Assembly: GCA_937911965.1 (NCBI GenBank)
Contig: CALDPL010000107.1
Coordinates: 1 to 10,526, forward strand
DNA: 10,526 nucleotides
Source of the DNA: an uncultured Allomuricauda sp.
GTDB taxonomy: Bacteria; Bacteroidota; Bacteroidia; Flavobacteriales; Flavobacteriaceae
Reading direction: 5' to 3'
Part shown: in pieces, positions 1-10,505 of the stretch
Layout: the number at the start of each line of letters is the position of its first letter
Numbering within the stretch: the stretch's first letter is position 1
Position numbers and translations under genes: made by a program
The notes under the pieces: generated by a model
Database searches by the model: none
Told to the model about the DNA's origin: nothing
Seen by the model: the letters and a program-made list of their open reading frames with translations, nothing else

Positions 1-1072
1 ACAGATTGGCGCGATTCAAGGCCCAATTTTGCAAGCGATCTGCCAGCTGGTCGTTATTCAAGTCTTCGCGAATCCAAAGGCCGTTCAGCCAATTGAGCTT
101 GTCCACATCAAATATGGGCCCTCCCAGGCTGACACGCTCAATGTTGAACTGGGACTGCATATCGGCCAAAGAAAATTTTTCTCGCTCGTCCGGCATGGAC
201 CAGCCCATGCGCCCCAGGTAGTTCAGCAACGCTTCCGGCAGGTAGCCCATGCGCTTGTAATAGAGAATGCTGGTGGGGTTCTTGCGCTTGCTGAGCTTGG
301 TTTTATCCGGGTTGCGCAACAAGGGCAAATGGCAAAACACCGGTGGCTGCCAACCAAAATATTCATAGAGCAGCACGTGTTTGGGTGCGGAATTTATCCA
401 CTCTTCCCCGCGGATGACATGGGTAATGCCCATCAGGTGGTCATCCACCACATTGGCCAGGTGATAGGTCGGCATCCCATCGCTTTTAAAAAGGATCTTA
501 TCGTCCAGGATGTTCGTGTCGATACGGATTTCCCCACGGATGACATCGTTCAACACCAAATGCTCCCCTTCTGGGGATTTGAAACGGATCACATAGTCCT
601 CCCCGGCAACCAACCTCCTTTGGACCTCTTCCTGGTCAAGGTTAAGGGAATTTTGCAGTTTCAGGCGGTTGTGCCAATTGTAGATGAAGGTCTTTCCTTG
701 GGCCTCATGGGAATTTCGGTGTCCCTCCAAGGCCTCGGCGGTGTCAAAGGCATAATAGGCCTTGCCCCTTTTGATGAGTTCCTGGGCATATTTTAAATAG
801 AGATCTTGGCGTTCACTTTGGCGGTAGGGCCCAAAGCCCCTTTCCTTTCCGGGGCCTTCATCAAAGGGGATCCCACACCACTCAAGGGCCTCCACAATAT
901 AGGCCTCCGCCCCTTCCACAAATCGGTTTTGGTCGGTATCCTCGATGCGCAACAGAAAATCCCCCTGATGCTTTTTGGCAAAAAGGTAATTGAACAGGGC
1001 AGTTCGCAGTCCTCCAATGTGCAAAGGCCCCGTGGGACTTGGGGCAAATCGCACCCTTACTTTATCATTCAT
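1..1072 (-). CDS. gltX: Glutamyl-tRNA synthetase, N-terminal 357 residues (partial at window edge)
   Basis: GltX joins glutamate to tRNA-Glu using ATP in the cytoplasm. Reading the minus strand from the ATG at 1072-1070 gives [20 protein letters not shown], with the class I HIGH signature (here HIGG) at residues 18-21. The second signature, KLSKR (the KMSKS loop), is at residues 259-263. Between them are typical GluRS blocks such as [12 protein letters not shown] and [16 protein letters not shown]. The frame stays open to position 2, so the anticodon-binding C-terminal part (the family is about 500 residues) lies outside the window. No cysteine cluster is seen in the region that binds zinc in some GluRS enzymes ([10 protein letters not shown]). 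The start is fixed by the family N-terminus and by a promoter just upstream. The gene is divergent from the DUF4175 gene. Long plus-strand frames over this stretch are shadows. Confidence 0.97.
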
Positions 1073-1089
1073 TTTTTCAACTTAGGCAA

Positions 1090-1120
1090 CAAAGATACAG
1101 TGCCCCGGAGATTCTGAAAA
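1090..1120 (-). promoter_or_regulatory. Probable gltX promoter (Bacteroidota type)
   Basis: On the minus strand a perfect TAnnTTTG -7 box, TATCTTTG, covers 1097-1090. A weak -33 element (TTTT, 1120-1117) lies 19 bp further upstream. The predicted transcript start is about 10-15 bases before the gltX ATG. The boxes are seen in the sequence; promoter activity is inferred. Confidence 0.55.
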
Positions 1121-1185
1121 GCACCCAAGCCTCAGTTTCTGGGTTTCTTTGGGGTTTGAAGCGGTACAGTTTAACAAATATTTCG

Positions 1186-1214
1186 TTTGCCTTTGCCCAA
1201 GATGGGCTAATTTG
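1186..1214 (+). promoter_or_regulatory. Possible promoter of the DUF4175-ybeY operon
   Basis: TTTG at 1186-1189 is followed after 18 bp by TAATTTG at 1208-1214. This is one base short of the TAnnTTTG consensus. It would start transcription shortly before the proposed TTG start at 1234. The match is imperfect, so this is a weak call, made mainly because the divergent spacer needs a rightward promoter. Confidence 0.28.
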
Positions 1215-1233
1215 GTACCCAAGAGCCAGTATA

Positions 1234-4200
1234 TTGAGCAGTTACCAGAACATACTCACGCGTTTGGAGGCCTTTGTAAGGCGCTACCACAGCAGGCAAT
1301 TCGTCAAGGGAATCCTAATGTTCCTCGGCCTGGGATTGCTATTTTGGATCGGGGTTCTTTCCTTGGAGTACCTGCTTTGGATGGGCCCCAGATGGAGGTT
1401 GGTTCTGTTTTGGACCTTTGTCGGCATCGAACTCTATCTGCTCTATCGCTTTATCATCCTGCCGCTCTTGTACCTGTTTCGCCTTAGGAAAGGGATGGAC
1501 CACAAGGAGGCCTCCCTGCTGATCGGAAAACATTTCCCTGAGGTCGATGACAAATTGTACAACCTTTTGGAACTCTCCCAACATCCCCATAAATCCGATT
1601 TGTTGTTGGCCAGCATCCGGCAACGTTCCGATCGATTGGGCCATGTTCCCTTTTCCAAGGCCATCGATTTCAAGGAAAACTATAAGTACCTCAAGTATGT
1701 ATTGGTGCCCTTTTTGATCTTGGGGTTTCTATGGGCCAGTGGGAACCTGCTCGCCTTTTTCAATTCCCACAGTCGCTTGGTTCACTATGATATGGCTTTC
1801 GAACGTCCGGCCCCCTTCAGTTTTAAACTGCTCAATGAGGACCTTCGGGTCATGGATCGTGAGGATTTTACCCTTATGGTGGCCTTGGAGGGATCGGTGC
1901 GTCCCGAGTTCGTTCATTTGGTGATCGATGGGCAACAGCTGTTGATGGAACAACGCGACGGGTTTTATCAGTACACCTTTGAGGCCCCTTTTCCCAGCAC
2001 CGATTTTTATTTGACGGCCAACGGTTGGAATTCCGGCAGCTATTCCCTCGAGGTCCTGCCCACCCCCAACATGATGGACTTTTGGATGGAACTCGATTTT
2101 CCCAAATACCTGAACCGTAAATCCGAAGTGGTCAAGGGAACCGGAAATGCAACCGTCCCCGAGGGCACCCATGTCCGTTGGATGGTCAAGGGACAGAACG
2201 TCGATCGGGTGTCCATGAAGGCAGCGGATTCGATACAGGATTTGAAGAGGGATGGAAACCTCTTTTCCCACAAGCTTCAAATCTTCAATCCCCTTGACTA
2301 TGGGTTGAGCAGCTCCAATGCCCATGTGGAACACTTTGAACCTTTGCAGTATTCCATTGGGGTCATAAAGGATGAATCTGCCCGGGTCCTGGTGGAACAG
2401 TTCCTGGATTCTGTCAATCCAAATCTGGCCTATTACAGCGGACAGGCCATGGACGATCACGGGTTGGCCAGTATCAGTTTGGTCTATTACCCCTTGGACG
2501 ATATCCGCGATGTCAAACGGCTTCTCTTGGAACGCCCCAACAGCAGTATGCATCAGTTTTATTACAGCTTTCCCTCGGGACTTGATTTGGAGGAGGGCCG
2601 CAATTACGGGCTGTATTTTGAAGTCGTGGACAACGATGCCTTACACGGGGGCAAACGTTCTAGAAGCCAGACCTTTAGCACTGTTATTTTAACCGACAAA
2701 CAATTGAAGGACAGGGAGTTGGACTTCCAGAACTCCTCCCTCCAACAAATGGACCGCTCCCTCGGGGAGTATAAGGATCAACAAAGAAGCCTCTTGGAAA
2801 TCAACCAGGGACAAAAGGAAAACCGGAGTCTTAGTTTTGAGGACAAGAACCGGATCCAGGATTTTCTGCAGCGGCAGCAGCAACAAGAGGCCCTGATGAA
2901 AAAGTTTAGCAATGAGCTCAGTGAGTCCCTGGCAAAACATCCCACCGATCCCAGGATGAACGAATTGCTTCAAGAACGGCTCCAACGCCAGGAAGAGGAG
3001 GCCCAAAAGAATGCGGCCCTTTTGGAAGAGCTTCAAAAGCTCGCCGAGAAAATGAACAAAGACGAGCTTCAACAACGCTTGGAGGAACTTGGAAAGAACC
3101 AAGGTCGAAATATTCGGAATCTCGAACAGATTCTGGAGCTGACCAAAAGATATTATGTCACTGAAAAAGCTTCTCAATTGTCCAGAAAGTTGAACGATCT
3201 TTCAAAACGGCAGGAAAAACTCTCAGAAGAGCAAGAACAGACCCAAGGGGATCAGCAAGGACTCAACGAGGAATTTGGAGAGCTTGACCGGGAAGTGGAG
3301 GAATTGGAGCGGGACAATAAGGATCTTAAAAAGCCCTTGGACATCAAGGACTCCAAAAAGGAACGCGAATCCATAAAAAGAGACCAGGAGGATGCCTTGG
3401 AGGATCTTCAGAAACAGGAAGAACCCCAAGATTCCCAAGACGGTAACGAAGGAAATGATAATCAAAATGCCTCCAAGAAACAAAAGTCTGCGGCCCAAAA
3501 GATGAAGGAAATGGCCCAATCCCTCCAAATGGGTGGTGCCGCGGGCGGTGCCTCGGATACCGAAGACGCTGCAATGCTGAGACAGATTCTTGATAATCTG
3601 CTCCATTTTTCATTCAAACAGGAAGATTTGTTCGATCACATCCGGGGTACCCAAGTTGATATTGGCGAGTTCGCCGGAACGGTCAAGGAACAACAGGAAC
3701 TCAAAAGGCTTTTTCAACATGTGGACGACAGTCTTTTTGCCCTTTCCCTACGAAGGGCCGAATTGTCCGAGTTCGTAAACGAGCAGGTCAGTGAGGTCTA
3801 TTACAATATAGACAGGTCTTTGGAAAGTCTTGCGGAGAATCAGTTCTATCAGGGGGCTTCCCATCAACAGTACACGATCAACGCCACCAATGCATTGGCC
3901 GACTTCCTAGCCGACATCCTGGAGAACATGCAGCAGAACCTTTCCATGGGTTCTGGGGGTGCCTCCAATTCAGACTTTCAATTGCCGGACATCATTCAGG
4001 GCCAACAGAGCTTGCAAGAAAAAATGGGCAATGCCGACAAAGAAGGGAAACCCCGGGAAGGAGAGCAAGGGGAGCAGGGCGAAGGCAAACAAAAGGGTGA
4101 TGGAAATTCCCCTGGGGAGAAGCAACAGGGCCAAGAGGGAGAAGCAGCTGAAGGAGAAGAACTCGGTCTGAACGAAATCTATGAGATTTATAAGGAGCAG

Positions 4201-4590
4201 CAATTCTTGAGGGAACAATTGGAGAAGCAATTAAGGGACATGATCAATAAGGAGGATCGTGAATTGACTGAAAAACTGCTTCGTCAAATGGAAGATTTCC
4301 AGAACGATCTTCTGGAAAACGGCATTACCCAAAGGAGTATGGCCAAGGTAAACAACATCCAACATCAGCTCTTGAAACTGGAGGATGCGGTATTGGAACA
4401 GGGCCTGAAAGAGGAGCGCGAGAGCCGGACCAACCTTCAGGATTATAACAATCCCATCATTAGCAAACCCGAACAGTTTAAAGAATCGAGGCAGGGGATT
4501 GAAATTTTAAATCGACAAGCCTTACCTTTGCGGCGAAAATACGAGCAAAAGGTCAAGGAATATTTTAGGAATGATCGAGTTTCATTTTAA
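1234..4590 (+). CDS. DUF4175 family membrane/coiled-coil protein
   Basis: Large envelope protein of unknown molecular function, recognised as the DUF4175 family found in Bacteroidota. I place the start at the in-frame TTG 1234 (1118 residues), because the family begins a few residues before the helix read here as YQNILTRLEAF. The only upstream ATG (1039) lies inside gltX and would add 65 unrelated residues. Three membrane segments are at about 26-48, 56-83 and 153-175. A presumably periplasmic beta-rich region follows to about 480, then a long Q/E/K-rich coiled coil at about 490-755. A glycine patch leads to a helical region, then a low-complexity E/G/K/Q stretch (about 935-978) and a conserved-looking helical C-terminus. 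The last 20 bp overlap ybeY, suggesting translational coupling. The role is unknown; a scaffold in the envelope is only a guess from the shape. Confidence 0.88.
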   Translation: MSSYQNILTRLEAFVRRYHSRQFVKGILMFLGLGLLFWIGVLSLEYLLWMGPRWRLVLFWTFVGIELYLLYRFIILPLLYLFRLRKGMDHKEASLLIGKHFPEVDDKLYNLLELSQHPHKSDLLLASIRQRSDRLGHVPFSKAIDFKENYKYLKYVLVPFLILGFLWASGNLLAFFNSHSRLVHYDMAFERPAPFSFKLLNEDLRVMDREDFTLMVALEGSVRPEFVHLVIDGQQLLMEQRDGFYQYTFEAPFPSTDFYLTANGWNSGSYSLEVLPTPNMMDFWMELDFPKYLNRKSEVVKGTGNATVPEGTHVRWMVKGQNVDRVSMKAADSIQDLKRDGNLFSHKLQIFNPLDYGLSSSNAHVEHFEPLQYSIGVIKDESARVLVEQFLDSVNPNLAYYSGQAMDDHGLASISLVYYPLDDIRDVKRLLLERPNSSMHQFYYSFPSGLDLEEGRNYGLYFEVVDNDALHGGKRSRSQTFSTVILTDKQLKDRELDFQNSSLQQMDRSLGEYKDQQRSLLEINQGQKENRSLSFEDKNRIQDFLQRQQQQEALMKKFSNELSESLAKHPTDPRMNELLQERLQRQEEEAQKNAALLEELQKLAEKMNKDELQQRLEELGKNQGRNIRNLEQILELTKRYYVTEKASQLSRKLNDLSKRQEKLSEEQEQTQGDQQGLNEEFGELDREVEELERDNKDLKKPLDIKDSKKERESIKRDQEDALEDLQKQEEPQDSQDGNEGNDNQNASKKQKSAAQKMKEMAQSLQMGGAAGGASDTEDAAMLRQILDNLLHFSFKQEDLFDHIRGTQVDIGEFAGTVKEQQELKRLFQHVDDSLFALSLRRAELSEFVNEQVSEVYYNIDRSLESLAENQFYQGASHQQYTINATNALADFLADILENMQQNLSMGSGGASNSDFQLPDIIQGQQSLQEKMGNADKEGKPREGEQGEQGEGKQKGDGNSPGEKQQGQEGEAAEGEELGLNEIYEIYKEQQFLREQLEKQLRDMINKEDRELTEKLLRQMEDFQNDLLENGITQRSMAKVNNIQHQLLKLEDAVLEQGLKEERESRTNLQDYNNPIISKPEQFKESRQGIEILNRQALPLRRKYEQKVKEYFRNDRVSF

Positions 4591-4990
4591 ATCGGATTTT
4601 TTGATATACAATAAATCCGACTATTCCGATTGGATAAGTAGAATATTGGATTCCGAAGGCTTCACTTTGGGGCAATTGGATTATATCTTCTGCACGGACC
4701 AAGCTCTTTTGGAAATCAATTTGGAGTACCTGGCACATGATACCCTTACGGACATCATAAGTTTTGATTACTCCCAGGGCAAGGTCCTCTCCGGGGATAT
4801 ATTCATCTCCACGGAACGGGTGGCCGAGAATGCAAAGACCTTTGGGGTCAGTTTCGACAATGAGTTGCTTCGGGTCATGAGCCATGGACTGCTTCACCTA
4901 ATGGGATATGGGGACAAAGAAGAGGAACAGATCGTTCAAATGCGGGCCAAAGAAGAGGAGAAAATAAGAATGTTCCACGTGGAACATTGA
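4571..4990 (+). CDS. ybeY: Endoribonuclease YbeY, rRNA maturation factor
   Basis: YbeY is a single-domain metal-dependent RNase acting in 16S rRNA 3'-end maturation and ribosome quality control. The 139-residue product has the family blocks TLTDIISFDY (58-67, TDVLSF-like), SGDIFISTERV (74-84), and the metal-site motif HGLLHLMGYGD. The two histidines are H105 and H109. The third ligand position, usually histidine in GYDH, is D115, a form I recall from other Bacteroidota. The ATG at 4571 starts within the DUF4175 gene, 20 bp before its stop, so the two genes probably share an mRNA. The last six residues, MFHVEH, are encoded by a complete parS-like palindrome, so the C-terminal tail looks shaped by a DNA site rather than by protein function. 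Confidence 0.95.
   Translation: MIEFHFKSDFLIYNKSDYSDWISRILDSEGFTLGQLDYIFCTDQALLEINLEYLAHDTLTDIISFDYSQGKVLSGDIFISTERVAENAKTFGVSFDNELLRVMSHGLLHLMGYGDKEEEQIVQMRAKEEEKIRMFHVEH
4971..4986. promoter_or_regulatory. parS: parS-like ParB/Spo0J binding site 1
   Basis: A perfect 16-bp palindrome, TGTTCCACGTGGAACA, extending to 20 bp with AA/TT flanks (4969-4988). The known Spo0J parS consensus is TGTTNCACGTGAAACA; this copy differs only by G for A in the right arm, which makes it fully symmetric. It lies inside the end of ybeY. Two identical copies occur at 5133 and 7034. ParB binding is inferred from the motif. Confidence 0.85.
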
Positions 4991-5132
4991 TTTCCTTATC
5001 AAAATTCTGTTCTTTTTTAAAACTTTTGCTCAAATTCTTTCAATTACAAATAACAGAATCAATTTTTTTATCCGACCCCTTCAAACTCATAATTTGATTA
5101 GAAATCAACCGAATTTGGTATTTAATAATAAA
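4991..5132. other. AT-rich non-coding spacer between two parS-like sites
   Basis: About 142 bp with roughly one quarter G+C by hand count, far below the neighbouring genes. It holds A/T runs, a short dyad TTGATT-AGA-AATCAA at 5094-5108, and an 8-bp inverted repeat ATTCTGTT/AACAGAAT (5004-5011 and 5052-5059). No ORF, RNA gene, good DnaA box (TTATCCACA) or convincing TAnnTTTG promoter was found, although mnmG probably has its promoter here. Confidence 0.6.
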
Positions 5133-5148
5133 TGTTCCACGTGGAACA
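5133..5148. promoter_or_regulatory. parS: parS-like ParB/Spo0J binding site 2
   Basis: Second exact copy of TGTTCCACGTGGAACA. It ends six bases before the mnmG ATG at 5155, where a ribosome-binding site would normally lie. Its outer flanks are not symmetric (A on both sides). A bound ParB here could affect mnmG transcription, which is inference. Confidence 0.85.
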
Positions 5149-5154
5149 ATTGAT

Positions 5155-7023
5155 ATGTTTGATCAAGAATACGATGTAATAGTAGTAGGAGCTGGGCATG
5201 CCGGGGCTGAGGCTACGGCGGCCGCGGCCAATATGGGCTCCAAGACCCTGTTGGTCACCATGAACCTACAAACCATTGGACAAATGTCCTGCAATCCTGC
5301 CATGGGTGGAATTGCAAAAGGACAGATCGTTCGGGAGATCGATGCACTCGGAGGCTATAGTGGCATCATTACGGATCGTTCTGCCATACAGTTTAAAATG
5401 CTCAACAAATCCAAGGGACCGGCCATGTGGAGTCCCAGGGCACAAAGCGATCGAATGCGCTTTGCAGAGGAATGGCGATTGGCCCTGGAAGCTACACCCA
5501 ATGCCGATTTTTACCAGGAGATGGTCTCGGGGATTTTGATCAAGGACGATAGGGTTGTGGGAGTACGTACCTCCCTAGGGATTGAGATTCGTTCCAAGGC
5601 TGTGATCCTTACCAATGGCACCTTTTTGAATGGCTTGATCCATATAGGCGAAAAACAATTCGGCGGGGGCAGGGCCGGGGAAAAGGCGGCCACCGGAATT
5701 ACGGAACAATTGGTTGCCTTGGGATTTGACAGCGGAAGAATGAAAACGGGAACCCCACCCAGAGTGGATGGAAGGTCCTTGGATTATGGGAAGATGATTC
5801 CCCAACCGGGGGATCCCGAACCCGGTAAATTCTCATATTTGGACACCCCTATTTTGAAGGAGCAAAGGGATTGTCATATGACGCATACCTCGGCCTTGGT
5901 CCACGATCTTTTGCGGGAAGGCTTCGACCGTTCTCCCATGTTCAATGGCAGGATCCAAAGCATAGGTCCCCGGTACTGTCCTTCCATAGAGGACAAGATC
6001 AACCGTTTTGCCGATAAGGATTCCCATCAAATATTTGTGGAGCCCGAAGGTTGGAACACCGTTGAGGTCTATGTAAACGGCTTCTCAACTTCCCTTCCCG
6101 AGGACGTCCAATACAAGGCCTTGAAATCGGTCAAAGGCTTTGAACATGTCAAGTTTTTCAGGCCGGGATATGCCATAGAATACGATTATTTTCCACCAAC
6201 CCAACTCAGGCATACCCTCGAAACAAAGTTGGTCGAGAACCTCTATTTCGCGGGTCAGATCAACGGCACCACAGGCTATGAGGAGGCGGCCTCCCAAGGG
6301 CTTATGGCCGGGATAAATGCCCATCTAAAGATCAATGAAAAGGAGCCTTTGATCCTGAAAAGGGACGAGGCCTATATCGGGGTTTTGGTCGATGATCTGA
6401 TCACCAAGGGCACCGAAGAGCCCTATCGAATGTTCACCTCCAGGGCGGAATATCGGACCCTTTTGAGGCAGGACAATGCCGACCTCAGGTTGACCCCCAA
6501 GGGGTATGAAATCGGCTTGGCCAAGGAAGAGCGGATGCGAAGAATGGAAGAGAAACGGTCCAAGTCAAAAGCCTTTGTCGAGTTCTTCAGGAGCAACAGT
6601 TTCGATCCAAAGGAGATCAATCCCATATTGGAATCCTTGGATCTGGCCCAAGTCAAACAGGCCGATAAGCTCTTTAAAGTTTTTTCCAGGCCCAAGGTGG
6701 GGATGGAGCATATGCTGCAATTGGACTTGGTAGGAGCCTATGCGATGAATCAAAATTTGGACGCAGAAGTATTGGAGCAGGCCGAAATCGAGGTCAAGTA
6801 TGCTGGCTATATCGAAAAGGAAAAGGCCAATGCGGATAAATTGCACCGTTTGGAGGAAGTCAGGATTCCGGAGACTTTTGATTATTCAAAACTAAAATCC
6901 CTCTCCTTTGAAGCCCGGGAAAAATTGCAGGCCATCAAGCCGGTCACCATTTCACAGGCATCCCGAATTTCCGGGGTGAACCCTTCGGACATCAGTGTAC
7001 TTTTGGTCCATTTGGGCAGGTAA
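5155..7023 (+). CDS. mnmG: tRNA uridine-5-carboxymethylaminomethyl modification enzyme MnmG (GidA)
   Basis: MnmG is the FAD-dependent partner of the GTPase MnmE. Together they place the carboxymethylaminomethyl group on C5 of the wobble uridine in certain tRNAs. The 622-residue product has the usual length (about 620-630). The FAD-binding GAGHAG is at residues 12-17, the CNPAMGG signature has its cysteine at 46, and the second conserved cysteine is at 275 in [21 protein letters not shown] lies at about 198-207. The C-terminus ends in the helical [18 protein letters not shown] block, which in the family contacts MnmE and tRNA. The ATG at 5155 fits the family N-terminus (DVIVVGAG). The gene is framed by parS-like sites on both sides, in keeping with the frequent location of gidA near replication origins. 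mnmE is not in the window. Confidence 0.98.
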
Positions 7024-7033
7024 AAAACGCCAA

Positions 7034-7049
7034 TGTTCCACGTGGAACA
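7034..7049. promoter_or_regulatory. parS: parS-like ParB/Spo0J binding site 3
   Basis: Third exact copy of TGTTCCACGTGGAACA, ten bases after the mnmG stop. As at site 1, AA/TT flanks extend the palindrome to 20 bp (7032-7051). It lies about 1.9 kb from site 2, so the three sites form a cluster of about 2.1 kb. Confidence 0.85.
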
Positions 7050-7055
7050 TTTTTA

Positions 7056-7118: not shown

Positions 7119-7126
7119 TATTTTTG
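7119..7126 (+). promoter_or_regulatory. -7 box of a probable methyltransferase-gene promoter
   Basis: TATTTTTG matches TAnnTTTG exactly. There is no good TTG at -33 (the best is CTG at 7093-7095, 23 bp away). Transcription from here would begin near 7131, which excludes the in-frame TTG at 7124 and supports the ATG at 7163 as the start. Confidence 0.45.
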
Positions 7127-7162
7127 AAGGACCTGGATCATAAAAAAACTGCCACCCAAATA

Positions 7163-7993
7163 ATGAAGCCCTATCTAAAAACCTTAGATCATTCCGTCTC
7201 CAAGGAAGCCTTTGATTTGTATTGGGACGCGGATCTGGACATGCTCTGTACCCGGCCCCAACCCCAAGATCTGGCCCCGTATTATGACAGTGGGGATTAT
7301 ATTTCCCATACGGATGCCAAGAATTCCCTGTTTGAGCGTATCTATCAAACTGTCAAGCAAATAAACCTCAATTCCAAGCTTCAATATATTGATAATCAGA
7401 ATGATAAGATAAAAACCCTCCTGGATATCGGGACCGGGACCGGGGATTTCCTTCTAAAGGCAAAATCAAAGGGTTTTCAGGTGCAGGGGATGGAGCCCAA
7501 TGCCAAGGCGAGGGAATTGGCCCTTCAAAAAGGAGTGGCCTTGGCAGCGGATTGGAATCAAATTCCAGCGGACAGCTACCGGTACATTACCCTCTGGCAC
7601 GTATTGGAACACCTTCCCGATCTGGAAACAGAGATCCAAAGAATCGTTTCCCATTTGGAACCTGATGGGACCCTGATCGTGGCCGTTCCCAATTTTAAAT
7701 CCTTCGACGCCCAATATTACGGAAGCCATTGGGCGGGGTATGATGTGCCCAGACACCTTTGGCATTTTTCACGGACCTCCATCGCCAAACTCTTTGGGGC
7801 CCATGGAATGGAAATCCACTCCATCAAGCCCATGTGGTTCGATGCCTTTTATGTCTCCCTGCTCTCCGAAAAATATCGGGGAAGCTCTTGGTCCTGGATC
7901 CGGGGTTTTTGGGTCGGACTCCGTTCCAATCTCAAGGCGATGCACAGCGGGGAGCACTCTTCCCTGATCTATGTCCTGAAAAGGAAGAAATAA
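7163..7993 (+). CDS. Class I SAM-dependent methyltransferase, substrate unknown
   Basis: A 276-residue methyltransferase of the type 11/12 fold. The SAM-binding motif I is LLDIGTGTGDFL at residues 86-97, the acidic end of strand 2 is the GMEP block (109-112), and a WHVLEHLPD block (145-153) matches the post-motif seen in small-molecule methyltransferases. The GYDVPRHLWHFS block (192-203) also recurs in this family. The N-terminal DHSVSKEAF...DYISHTDAK section is, from memory, typical of flavobacterial members. I chose ATG 7163 because a -7 box overlaps the earlier TTG 7124 (which would give 289 residues) and because homologues start just before DHSVS. No signal peptide or membrane segment is visible, so it is cytoplasmic. 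Nothing in the sequence tells the substrate; its place beside mnmG does not prove a tRNA role. Confidence 0.9.
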   Translation: MKPYLKTLDHSVSKEAFDLYWDADLDMLCTRPQPQDLAPYYDSGDYISHTDAKNSLFERIYQTVKQINLNSKLQYIDNQNDKIKTLLDIGTGTGDFLLKAKSKGFQVQGMEPNAKARELALQKGVALAADWNQIPADSYRYITLWHVLEHLPDLETEIQRIVSHLEPDGTLIVAVPNFKSFDAQYYGSHWAGYDVPRHLWHFSRTSIAKLFGAHGMEIHSIKPMWFDAFYVSLLSEKYRGSSWSWIRGFWVGLRSNLKAMHSGEHSSLIYVLKRKK

Positions 7994-8230: not shown

Positions 8231-8737
8231 ATGAAAAAAATAATGATGTTGGTCGTGGCCCTTTCCGCCATGGCATGTCAACAGAACAAGATCGGGTTTG
8301 TGAACAGCCTCGAACTTATGGACGGGTATAAGGAACGGGTCGATCTTGAGGCCAGGTTCAAGACCAAGGCCGATGCCATGACCAAGAAGAGGGACAGTAT
8401 CGCCCAATCCTTCCAGTTGGAACTGCAGGCCTTCCAGACCAAGGCGGAACGCATGTCCCAAAAGAATGCCCAAGAGGAATACGGGCAGTTGCAACAACGG
8501 GGACAGTTTGCCGGCCAGCAATTGCAGATGGAGGAACAACAACTTCAACAAAGCAGCCAGACCGAAATGGATTCCCTGGTCAAAAAGGTCAAAAGGGAAA
8601 TTGAAGCTTACGGCAAGGCCAACGGCTACACCTACATCCTGGGTGGGGGCGATGGCGGTGCGGTCCTCTACGGAGAGGAGGCCCATGACCTCACGGATGC
8701 CATCCTTAAGATCCTGAACGACAAATACGGGAATTGA
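8231..8737 (+). CDS. Skp/OmpH family periplasmic protein, putative lipoprotein
   Basis: A 168-residue exported protein of the Skp/OmpH family, whose known members are periplasmic chaperones for outer-membrane proteins. It starts MKKIMMLVVALSAMACQQ: a short basic end, a hydrophobic core, and C16 in a lipobox-like AMAC, so it may be lipid-anchored. The alanine at -3 is not the usual leucine. KIGFVNSLELMDGYKER (from residue 20) is the first strand and helix of the fold. A Q/E/K-rich amphipathic coiled coil at about 34-125 is the tentacle region. The C-terminal YTYILGGGDGGAVLYGEE...DLTDAILKILN closes the body domain as in other Bacteroidota members. The gene stands alone between its own -7 box and a strong terminator. 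Family assignment is good; true chaperone activity is inferred. Confidence 0.85.
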   Translation: MKKIMMLVVALSAMACQQNKIGFVNSLELMDGYKERVDLEARFKTKADAMTKKRDSIAQSFQLELQAFQTKAERMSQKNAQEEYGQLQQRGQFAGQQLQMEEQQLQQSSQTEMDSLVKKVKREIEAYGKANGYTYILGGGDGGAVLYGEEAHDLTDAILKILNDKYGN

Positions 8738-8768: not shown

Positions 8769-8799
8769 GACCCATTCGAAAGGATGGGTCTTTTGTTTG
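8769..8799 (+). terminator. Intrinsic terminator after the OmpH-like gene
   Basis: GACCCATTC (8769-8777) pairs with GGATGGGTC (8782-8790) in a nine-pair stem with one T-G wobble, capped by the stable tetraloop GAAA, and followed by TTTTGTTTG. This is the clearest Rho-independent terminator in the window. It also argues against starting the next gene at the in-frame ATG 8784 inside the hairpin. Confidence 0.85.
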
Positions 8800-8902
8800 T
8801 GGGCTCCCTAGATCGGGGTCAAGGGACAAATCAACCCCTGGGGGGGATCCCTTGTACAAAATCACCGCTTCTTGATGCTTTATTATCCCTTTTGGGCCGC
8901 CA

Positions 8903-8935
8903 TTGCCCCCATATCGGGGCCATTGGGTATGTTTG
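8903..8935 (+). promoter_or_regulatory. Promoter for the cyclodeaminase-family gene, with nearly no leader
   Basis: TTG at 8903-8905 and a perfect -7 box TATGTTTG at 8928-8935 are 22 bp apart, within the 17-23 bp reported for Flavobacterium promoters. The -7 box ends only four bases before the ATG at 8940, so the transcript would begin at or very near the start codon. Confidence 0.45.
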
Positions 8936-8939
8936 TCCC

Positions 8940-9914
8940 ATGGAAAATACAGTTCGGATAGATGCCGCCTTTATTGAGGAAAACACCCATTTCCCGGATT
9001 TGATCGACGCCCTGGATCGAAGCTTTGCCGAAAAGGCCGCCCTGGTCCCCATGCGACACCACCACGATTTCCCAAACCCCGAAGTGGGGGGAGAGTCCAC
9101 CCTGCTGTTGATGCCCGCCTGGAACCCCGGTAGGGAGGCCGGGGTAAAAATAGCCACGGTGAGCCCGGAGAACGGAAGGTTCAATCTTCCCGCAATACAG
9201 GGGATCTACATTTATCTCGATGCCCTCAAGGGCAGCATCAGGGCGATTTTGGAGGCAAAGAGCCTTACGGTGAAACGCACGGCCGCAGCTTCGGCCCTGG
9301 CCTCCAAATACCTGAGCAGGGAGGATACCAAATCCATGCTCATGATCGGTACGGGGGCCCTTTCCCCTAATTTGATTAGGGCACACGCCAGCATCAGGCC
9401 CATAGAGGAAGTATTTGTATGGGGGCGGGACTTCAAGAAGGCAGAACGCATTTGCGATCTTTTGAAAGGGGGGGACTTTCGGATCACCCCCATCAAGGAA
9501 CTTGAGGAGCACTTGGGCCAGGTGGACCTGATTTCCTCGGCCACCCTTTCCCCAACCCCCTTGGTATTGGGCAAACATTTGAGGTCTGGACAGCATTTGG
9601 ATCTGGTCGGGGCCTACCGTCCGCATATGCGGGAGGCCGATGATTTGGCCGTCCAAAAATCGGAAGTCTTTGTGGACACCTATGAAGGGGGACTCAAGGA
9701 AAGTGGGGACATCGTCCTTCCCCTGCAGCGTGGCGTACTGCTACAAGAAAATATTAAGGCCGATCTCTTCGCCTTGGCCGCCAAGAAAAACAGGGGTAGG
9801 GAAGACAGGGAGCAGATCACGTTTTTCAAATCCGTGGGACATGCCCTGGAGGACCTGACGGCCGCGACCTATTATTTCGATCGGTTCCAAAAGCGGGGCC
9901 AAGGATCGAAGTAA
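8940..9914 (+). CDS. Ornithine cyclodeaminase/mu-crystallin family protein, probable ketimine (delta1-pyrroline-2-carboxylate) reductase
   Basis: A 324-residue NAD(P)-dependent enzyme of the OCD/mu-crystallin family. The N-terminal block FPDLIDALDRSFAEK and MPAWNP..GVK (58-70, with the conserved substrate-binding K70) are followed by KRTAAAS (112-118, carboxylate-binding arginine R113). The Rossmann loop is GTGALSPN (137-144), followed by EEVFVWGRDFKKAE. The C-terminal block FFKSVGHALEDLTAA (295-309) is typical. At the place where true cyclodeaminases have the catalytic aspartate in a GGDCPGKTE-type motif, this protein has GAYRPHMRE (224-232). That fits the reductase branch (delta1-pyrroline-2-carboxylate or related cyclic imines) better than ornithine deamination. 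The start at ATG 8940 follows the family N-terminus; the longer frame from 8784 would begin inside the terminator hairpin. Substrate is inferred. Confidence 0.88.
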   Translation: MENTVRIDAAFIEENTHFPDLIDALDRSFAEKAALVPMRHHHDFPNPEVGGESTLLLMPAWNPGREAGVKIATVSPENGRFNLPAIQGIYIYLDALKGSIRAILEAKSLTVKRTAAASALASKYLSREDTKSMLMIGTGALSPNLIRAHASIRPIEEVFVWGRDFKKAERICDLLKGGDFRITPIKELEEHLGQVDLISSATLSPTPLVLGKHLRSGQHLDLVGAYRPHMREADDLAVQKSEVFVDTYEGGLKESGDIVLPLQRGVLLQENIKADLFALAAKKNRGREDREQITFFKSVGHALEDLTAATYYFDRFQKRGQGSK

Positions 9915-10117: not shown

Positions 10118-10118
10118 A

Positions 10119-10322
10119 TCAGAGCCCTTCGATTTCCGCAACGGAAAGCCCCGTTACCTTGGGGATGTCATCGATCGGGTATCCCAAATTCTTCAATTCC
10201 TTGGCAATGGCGAGGGCTTTTAGATGTTGGCTCTCTTGAATTATTTCTTGAAATCCTTCTTGAAACCCTTTTTGAAATCCTTCTTCCCAAGCTTGTCTCT
10301 TGATAATTTCCAAAATGTCCAT
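10119..10322 (-). CDS. Small orphan protein resembling the C-terminal tail of Rpn/PD-(D/E)XK family proteins (copy B)
   Basis: A 67-residue ORF starting at ATG 10322. It begins MDILEIIKRQAWEEG, continues with GFQK-GFQE-GFQE, then HLKALAIAKELKNLG and ends PKVTGLSVAEIEGL. This order (charged glycine-containing repeat, helix KALAIAKELKNLG, then a helix-turn-helix-like VTGLS..EI) is that of the C-terminus of Rpn family recombination-promoting nucleases/putative transposases, but the whole PD-(D/E)XK nuclease part is missing. In E. coli-type rpn genes an internal start produces a similar small C-terminal protein, RpnS, reported to counter the full-length nuclease; a related role here is inference. 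It follows copy A after 15 bp and converges on the cyclodeaminase-family gene. Translation is plausible but unproven. Confidence 0.6.
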   Translation of the reverse strand: MDILEIIKRQAWEEGFQKGFQEGFQEIIQESQHLKALAIAKELKNLGYPIDDIPKVTGLSVAEIEGL

Positions 10323-10450
10323 ATCAATCGAAATAAATCAAAGAGACTCGATTTGCGCAACGGAAAGCCCCGTTACCTTGGCGATGAAATCAAAAGGGTT
10401 TCCCAAATTCTTCAATTCCCTGGCAATGGCGAGGGCCTTAAGTAGTTCGC
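10120..10450. repeat. Imperfect direct repeat of the Rpn-tail coding unit
   Basis: The segments at about 10130-10220 and 10354-10443 are direct copies. They share long blocks such as CGCAACGGAAAGCCCCGTTA and CCCAAATTCTTCAATTCC, with scattered differences, many at third codon positions. This indicates tandem duplication of the whole small ORF followed by divergence under some coding constraint. Confidence 0.8.
10245..10280 (-). repeat. Three tandem 12-bp repeats in copy B
   Basis: On the minus strand GGATTTCAAAAA, GGGTTTCAAGAA and GGATTTCAAGAA follow one another, encoding GFQK, GFQE and GFQE. Copy A lacks this array, which accounts for most of the length difference (67 against 55 residues). 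Confidence 0.8.
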
Positions 10451-10505
10451 CCTTTTCGATTCCTTTTTCCATTTCCTGTCTCTTGATCAATTCTATAATT
10501 CCCAT
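10338..10505 (-). CDS. Small orphan protein resembling the Rpn-family C-terminal tail (copy A)
   Basis: A 55-residue ORF from ATG 10505 to TGA 10338. It reads MGIIELIKRQEMEKGIEKGE, then LLKALAIARELKNLG, and ends AKVTGLSVAQIESL. Apart from the shorter glycine/charged repeat it aligns over its full length with the ORF at 10119-10322. At DNA level the last part is nearly identical, including a shared CGCAACGGAAAGCCCCGTTA and TGGCAATGGCGAGGGC. The KGIEKGE pattern is typical of Rpn-family C-termini. No nuclease domain precedes it within the 21 bp left before the window edge, and a TAA stop on the minus strand at 10526-10524 is in the same frame, so this is not the end of a longer protein in that frame. 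Promoter not visible. Confidence 0.58.
   Translation of the reverse strand: MGIIELIKRQEMEKGIEKGELLKALAIARELKNLGNPFDFIAKVTGLSVAQIESL

Follow-up and report, generated by a model that had tools for sequence, protein, structure and literature searches.

The three identical 16-bp palindromes found around mnmG in the window (the whole 10,526-nt stretch of DNA analysed, from an uncultured Allomuricauda sp.) almost certainly act as parS, where the chromosome-partition protein ParB docks. It is very probable that they are chromosomal parS forming a ParB nucleation point near oriC, with sister origins separated by ParA. The basis provided by this analysis comprises the sites themselves, their conservation, the small number and clustering of their copies, the parAB genes of relatives, with most parS-contacting residues, and proximity to the GC-skew origin in those relatives. 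As a kind of site, they are ordinary, known and well supported; ParB binding and segregation at these copies we infer by analogy with characterised systems, the literature searched having yielded no ParB binding data for any flavobacterium. The mnmG-centred layout is, to judge from sequence comparison, widespread in relatives.

Palindromes and genes in the window

A pattern search of the window gave exact matches to TGTTCCACGTGGAACA at three positions (Table 1), and no further copies even at up to 3 mismatches. When the window was shuffled, the 16-mer occurred 0.06 times on average and at most once; three copies were reached in 0 of 200 shuffles. Copies 1 and 3 extend to the 20-bp palindrome AATGTTCCACGTGGAACATT, and in copy 2 the palindrome is limited to 16 bp. 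Compared with the parS consensus TGTTNCACGTGAAACA, the 16-bp near-palindrome has a single difference, G for A at position 12. Copy 1 falls within the last ybeY codons (...MFHVEH-stop), and is hence not intergenic. The sequence-only reading had described three identical 16-bp palindromes, two reaching 20 bp, which were repeated beyond chance, matched the parS consensus in all but one position, and lay in a window with no parA or parB; the searches agree on every count, no ParA or ParB domain being present in the seven window ORFs scanned with Pfam.

Table 1. Predicted parS sites (exact TGTTCCACGTGGAACA matches) and genes in the window
Feature	Position	Strand	Remarks
Predicted parS copy 1	4971..4986 (20-bp palindrome 4969-4988)	.	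within ybeY 3' end, encodes C-terminal FHVEH
Predicted parS copy 2	5133..5148	.	ends 6 bp before mnmG start codon
Predicted parS copy 3	7034..7049 (20-bp palindrome 7032-7051)	.	starts 10 bp after mnmG stop
gltX-like ORF	2-1072	-	named by eye
large protein	1039-4590	+	Pfam match sub-threshold only
ybeY, rRNA maturation RNase	4571..4990	+	PF02130 3e-27; TIGR00043 3.2e-28
mnmG (gidA), gene between the sites	5155..7023	+	TIGR00136 835 bits; PF01134
SAM methyltransferase	7124..7993	+	PF13489 5.7e-27
OmpH-like protein	8231-8737	+	profile/ORF annotation
ornithine cyclodeaminase-like protein	8784-9914	+	profile/ORF annotation

Among the matches listed, the top relative of the window's MnmG is that of Flagellimonas amoyensis (89% identity; Flavobacteriaceae, Bacteroidota). 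Near its right end the window also has a 132-nt direct repeat of 80% identity (10118-10249 and 10337-10468), and a small ORF on the minus strand (10119-10322) without a Pfam match, which we take to resemble the C-terminal tail of Rpn-type nucleases.

Conservation around mnmG and distribution in related genomes

The mnmG loci compared are the best 80 of 592 matching stretches, and so mostly close relatives; 79 loci, the window included, have sequence on both sides of mnmG and were counted (L057 and L075, with short flanks, were left out). Sites with at most 2 mismatches to TGTTYCACGTGRAACA are found upstream of mnmG in 74/79 loci, downstream in 72/79, and on both sides in 71/79; four loci (L060, L072, L077, L078) have none. 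The zones near mnmG hold 196 sites in 133 kb, vs. 24 sites in 1,440 kb elsewhere in the loci, and after mononucleotide shuffling the near zones give 0.1 sites per pass. In the 176 sites that differ from the pattern once or not at all, the differing positions are 1 and 16 (51), 9 (8), 7 (2), and 10 (1); positions 2-4, 6, 8, 11, and 13-15 are free of mismatches.

As in the window, a site overlaps the 3' end of ybeY in 32 of the 66 loci where this gene was found by motif (window included), the other 34 being without overlap. The resulting protein tails (e.g., MFHVEQ, LFHVER, MFHVKH) mostly follow the pattern [ML]FHVE[QHR]; in L074 the overlapping site is used in another frame, giving the tail VSRET. 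We read the YbeY C-terminal tail as a by-product of site retention.

Some loci depart from the common pattern. A Flavobacterium locus (L026) has ten upstream sites, including four copies of TGTTCCACATGGAACA spaced about 117 bp apart, 312-663 bp before mnmG; this array is tandemly expanded. CACATG-centred sites occur in Kordia NORP58 and an uncultured relative, and drifted sites in Tenacibaculum and Polaribacter (L025, L041, L049, L050, L051, L056). A flavobacterial mnmG locus with its parS array is also found on a contig labelled as a Limnohabitans MAG (L024), which is probably mis-binned.

Many copies scattered evenly over the chromosome, which the sequence-only reading had named as telling against it, are not what the genomes of relatives show. 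All 23 relatives searched at up to 1 mismatch have between 1 and 8 sites per genome, most of them at mnmG, and the reversed pattern, used as a control on the same genomes at the same stringency, gave one match in 1/23. Lone one-mismatch matches away from mnmG are seen in G004, G017, G018, and G019; in the two Tenacibaculum genomes (G017 and G018) the only match at this stringency falls outside the mnmG locus, where the sites have 2-3 mismatches. The exact 16-mer is present in 55 of 60 genomes of the family, at 0-3 copies each (reversed pattern, 0/60), copies here too being few.

At the level of the phylum, 44 of 60 genomes (G001 plus 59) have the exact 16-mer. In 40 genomes among the matches listed, an exact site lies within 10 kb of mnmG in 39, and within 1 kb in 37; G001 likewise has a site linked to mnmG. 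Twenty genomes (the 16 without an exact match, G106, and the three beyond those listed) were re-examined at 1 mismatch: the site is mnmG-linked in 14, elsewhere only in G084, G118, G095, and G115, and missing in G116 and G136. Altogether, mnmG has a site (at most 1 mismatch) no more than 10 kb away in 54/60 phylum genomes (39 + 1 + 14, with G106 in both sets), and in 6/60 there is none near it. In the phylum re-examination the reversed control has a one-mismatch match in 5/28 genomes, and a lone one-mismatch match far from mnmG can therefore be due to chance.

In a Capnocytophaga MAG (G142), the 19.7-kb mnmG locus (L060) has no site, and three sites are found within 316 bp on another contig, where they adjoin a methyltransferase gene whose product has 51% identity to the window protein encoded just after mnmG; this is one fragmented MAG, in which contig mis-binning is possible. 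In G095 and G115 the sites are located between murQ-like and mfd-like genes (named by eye), extending in G095 into the mfd-like ORF.

The bracketing of mnmG in 71/79 loci, and the position of copy 2 a few nucleotides ahead of its start codon, might suggest operators for a local transcription factor controlling ybeY-mnmG. This is very unlikely: sites are also placed downstream of mnmG and within ybeY, they occur without mnmG in G142 and between the murQ-like and mfd-like genes in G095 and G115, and the Pfam scan of seven window ORFs gave no DNA-binding regulator family that passed the cut-off. An mnmG operator was rejected on the placement of the sites downstream, in ybeY, and apart from mnmG in G142.

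The replication origin and ParB in relatives

The origin was located by GC skew in seven single-contig chromosomes of relatives, with 20 stretches of 19-20 kb each (10-15%) fitted to a two-replichore step with replichores of 30-70%. The sites are 118 (G019), 229 (G041), 44 (G034), 34 (G067), 255 (G049), 146 (G070), and 284 kb (G040) from the skew origin; on the same chromosomes parB is 582-1448 kb and dnaA 886-1546 kb from it, and the site cluster is closer than either in 7/7. Shuffling reached the fit no more than once in 200 in four chromosomes (G041, G034, G067, G070), and 22, 26, and 45 times in 200 in G019, G049, and G040. The sequence-only reading had suggested nearness to the origin, and a position away from, or at least not within, parA and parB, and had proposed comparing the 16-mer with GC skew, dnaA, and parAB as a check; run in relatives, this check bears out both predictions (four of the seven fits being significant), and the window's own distance to the origin is extrapolated from them. 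Averaged over the loci, GC skew has no clear flip within 10 kb of mnmG.

A fit to coding-strand bias gave a less consistent picture. The origin it gives is 769-1027 kb away from the sites in G041 (12/200 shuffles), G067, G049, and G040, only G041 being near significance; in G070 (3/200) it agrees with the sites, as it does non-significantly in G019 and G034. Being mostly non-significant and partly contrary, coding-strand bias was dropped as an origin marker.

Clusters of DnaA boxes give a second indication in two lineages. In 7/7 Chryseobacterium and Kaistella loci (L048, L057, L058, L059, L061, L067, L071), the densest stretch of boxes is 2.5-4.3 kb past mnmG and is followed directly by a gene that resembles rpiB by eye, with 5-11 boxes (up to 1 mismatch) per 400 bp; in an Algoriphagus locus (L079), a stretch 2.6 kb past the mnmG gene holds 11 boxes. 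These counts use a looser box, with no shuffled control, and since 5-8 boxes are also reached by unrelated AT-rich stretches of other loci, L057 (5) and L067 (7) carry little weight by themselves. When TTATCCACA was searched with 1 mismatch allowed, at least 4 boxes per 300 bp were found in 5/81 loci (L048, L058, L059, L067, L079), vs. 0/405 shuffles. The window has no DnaA-box cluster. The box-rich stretches past mnmG are candidates for oriC. Passages of two flavobacterial genome papers (PMC11278836, PMC12843772) report that oriC is predicted to lie at mnmG, as GC skew also indicates; in the passages of the former, oriC and ter are exchanged in the legend of Figure 3 relative to the text.

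Binding of ParB mainly to regulate genes at mnmG, and not for segregation, would have a parallel in P. aeruginosa, whose ParB represses genes beside some parS sites (passages of PMC7022226). A part in chromosome positioning is indicated instead by proximity to the origin and by the G142 sites, which stand apart from mnmG, making this extremely unlikely.

A ParB homologue, whose absence would have spoken against the sequence-only reading, is present (TIGR00180) in all genomes searched (23/23, 8/8, and 59/59). The residues Q162, G170, K171, R173, N178, G201, and R204 (Caulobacter numbering) are kept in 31/31 ParBs read (loci L081-L103 and L151-L158; 29 from extracted sequences, 2 by eye). The passages of PMC7383237 that name the parS-contacting residues include S172 among the conserved ones; in its place all 31 ParBs have K, N, or D. 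According to the same passages, R173 contacts a G, which corresponds to position 2 of these 16-mers. Four ParBs were compared for co-variation with the variant sites (those of Tenacibaculum, Polaribacter, and Kordia NORP58), and their contact residues are unchanged. A ParA-like ORF (named by eye) is directly upstream of parB in L089. In the 12 phylum genomes compared that have parB and sites on one contig, the two are at least 404 kb apart in 11, and 72 kb apart in G115 (distances circular, with genome size rounded; other genomes have them on different contigs). In four genomes (G001, G005, G007, G014), the chromosomal ParB of about 300 aa is accompanied by larger proteins with a ParB domain (about 600-670 aa), which possibly belong to mobile elements.

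RNA hairpins or terminators of the ybeY-mnmG transcript have next to no likelihood: every site does fold (z -2.3 to -3.2), but this is expected of any palindrome, and although sites make up 4 of 6 terminator-like matches, this total is near the shuffled mean of 4.4; the idea was rejected since the pair at positions 5/12 (mnmG sense), counted over the 176 sites that have 1 mismatch or none, is stem-breaking C-A 40 times vs. wobble-keeping T-G 18 times (in related sequences, which are not independent), and the window has no Rfam match.

Sites for the nucleoid occlusion protein Noc, not parS, are hardly conceivable. The L089 ParB scores 234 bits on the NCBIfam Noc model vs. 170 bits on parB_part, and K/R at position 184 of the ParBs is Noc-like; yet the former score is under the Noc cut-off of 315 while the parB_part score is above its own, and K/R is also found at this position in about 28% of ParBs. 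Two positions of the 14-bp core, 1 and 6, distinguish the Noc-binding site (NBS), which has A and C there, from parS (passages of PMC7383237); the window has G and A, and sites with at most 1 mismatch keep these parS letters (G in 176/176, A in 174/176). A Noc site was rejected on these letters together with the ParBs, which retain R173 and G201 in place of Q173/R201.

Known systems and the proposed role of the mnmG locus

The sequence-only reading's identification of the sites as parS-like is supported by conservation, clustering, and the ParBs of relatives, with its ParB loading centre remaining a prediction. In other bacteria, ParB loads as a CTP clamp and spreads, and ParA drives movement. 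Here, a ParB dimer made from the distant parAB operon would bind each site through its half-sites GTTCCAC / GTGGAAC. The sites would nucleate a ParB complex near oriC, from which ParB would spread (by analogy with characterised ParABS systems; passages of PMC7022226), and movement of this complex by ParA would separate the sister origins.

One of the closest known systems is that of P. aeruginosa. The exact TGTTCCACGTGGAACA is its parS2/parS3, preferentially bound by ParB (passages of PMC4368675), and is also contained in a Bdellovibrio parS oligonucleotide (passages of PMC10547168). P. aeruginosa ParABS resembles the present case in having the identical 16-mer in a small cluster near oriC, and its one-mismatch neighbours parS1 and parS4 are bound too; parAB, however, is about 7 kb from oriC, in contrast to the remote parB of the relatives examined here.

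The Spo0J/parS system of Bacillus subtilis (TGTTNCACGTGAAACA) has the same consensus but for position 12, and is ori-proximal, as here. It has 10 sites, 8 of them in the ori domain (passages of PMC7022226), vs. a few around one gene. B. subtilis ParB also loads Smc-ScpAB (passages of PMC10197239), whereas neither Smc nor ScpA was found above curated cut-offs in 17/17 Flavobacteriales genomes, all with ParB (G001-G006, G008, G011, G014, G016, G019, G034, G040, G041, G049, G067, G070). Their matches to the Smc model are weak (best, 39 bits) and to ScpA there are none. Of 18 genomes searched for Smc and ScpA, Algoriphagus G023 alone is above the cut-offs, with Smc (1046 bits) and ScpA. Loading of Smc-ScpAB by ParB-parS in Flavobacteriales is therefore doubtful; there may be a divergent condensin.

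Bacteroides caecimuris and Muribaculum intestinale, also Bacteroidota, have most of their detected parS clustered at the origin by Hi-C; the origin is not always at dnaA, and no known condensin was found in either (passages of PMC10197239). The same passages name no gene beside the sites, in contrast to mnmG here. Linkage of parS to mnmG appears in no title, abstract, or passage found; it is not claimed to be unpublished, and the survey of Livny (2007) may list such sites.

A broader proposal, which we hold to be evenly balanced between right and wrong, is that mnmG is the address of the centromere and origin in Bacteroidota, in keeping with the old association of gidA with the origin: parS, joined in some lineages by a DnaA-box cluster a few kb off, would have kept its place around mnmG, parAB and dnaA having moved up to 1.5 Mb away, and in Flavobacteriales the cluster, without Smc-ScpA, would act with ParA as its only partner or with a condensin that has escaped recognition. 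In Bacteroidota, where dnaA can mislead, mnmG with flanking parS serves as a simple sequence landmark for the region of the origin. The layout also raises the question of the role of ParB-parS in a lineage where Smc-ScpA goes undetected, and provides a case in which a predicted parS overlaps, and writes, the C-terminus of an enzyme, YbeY.
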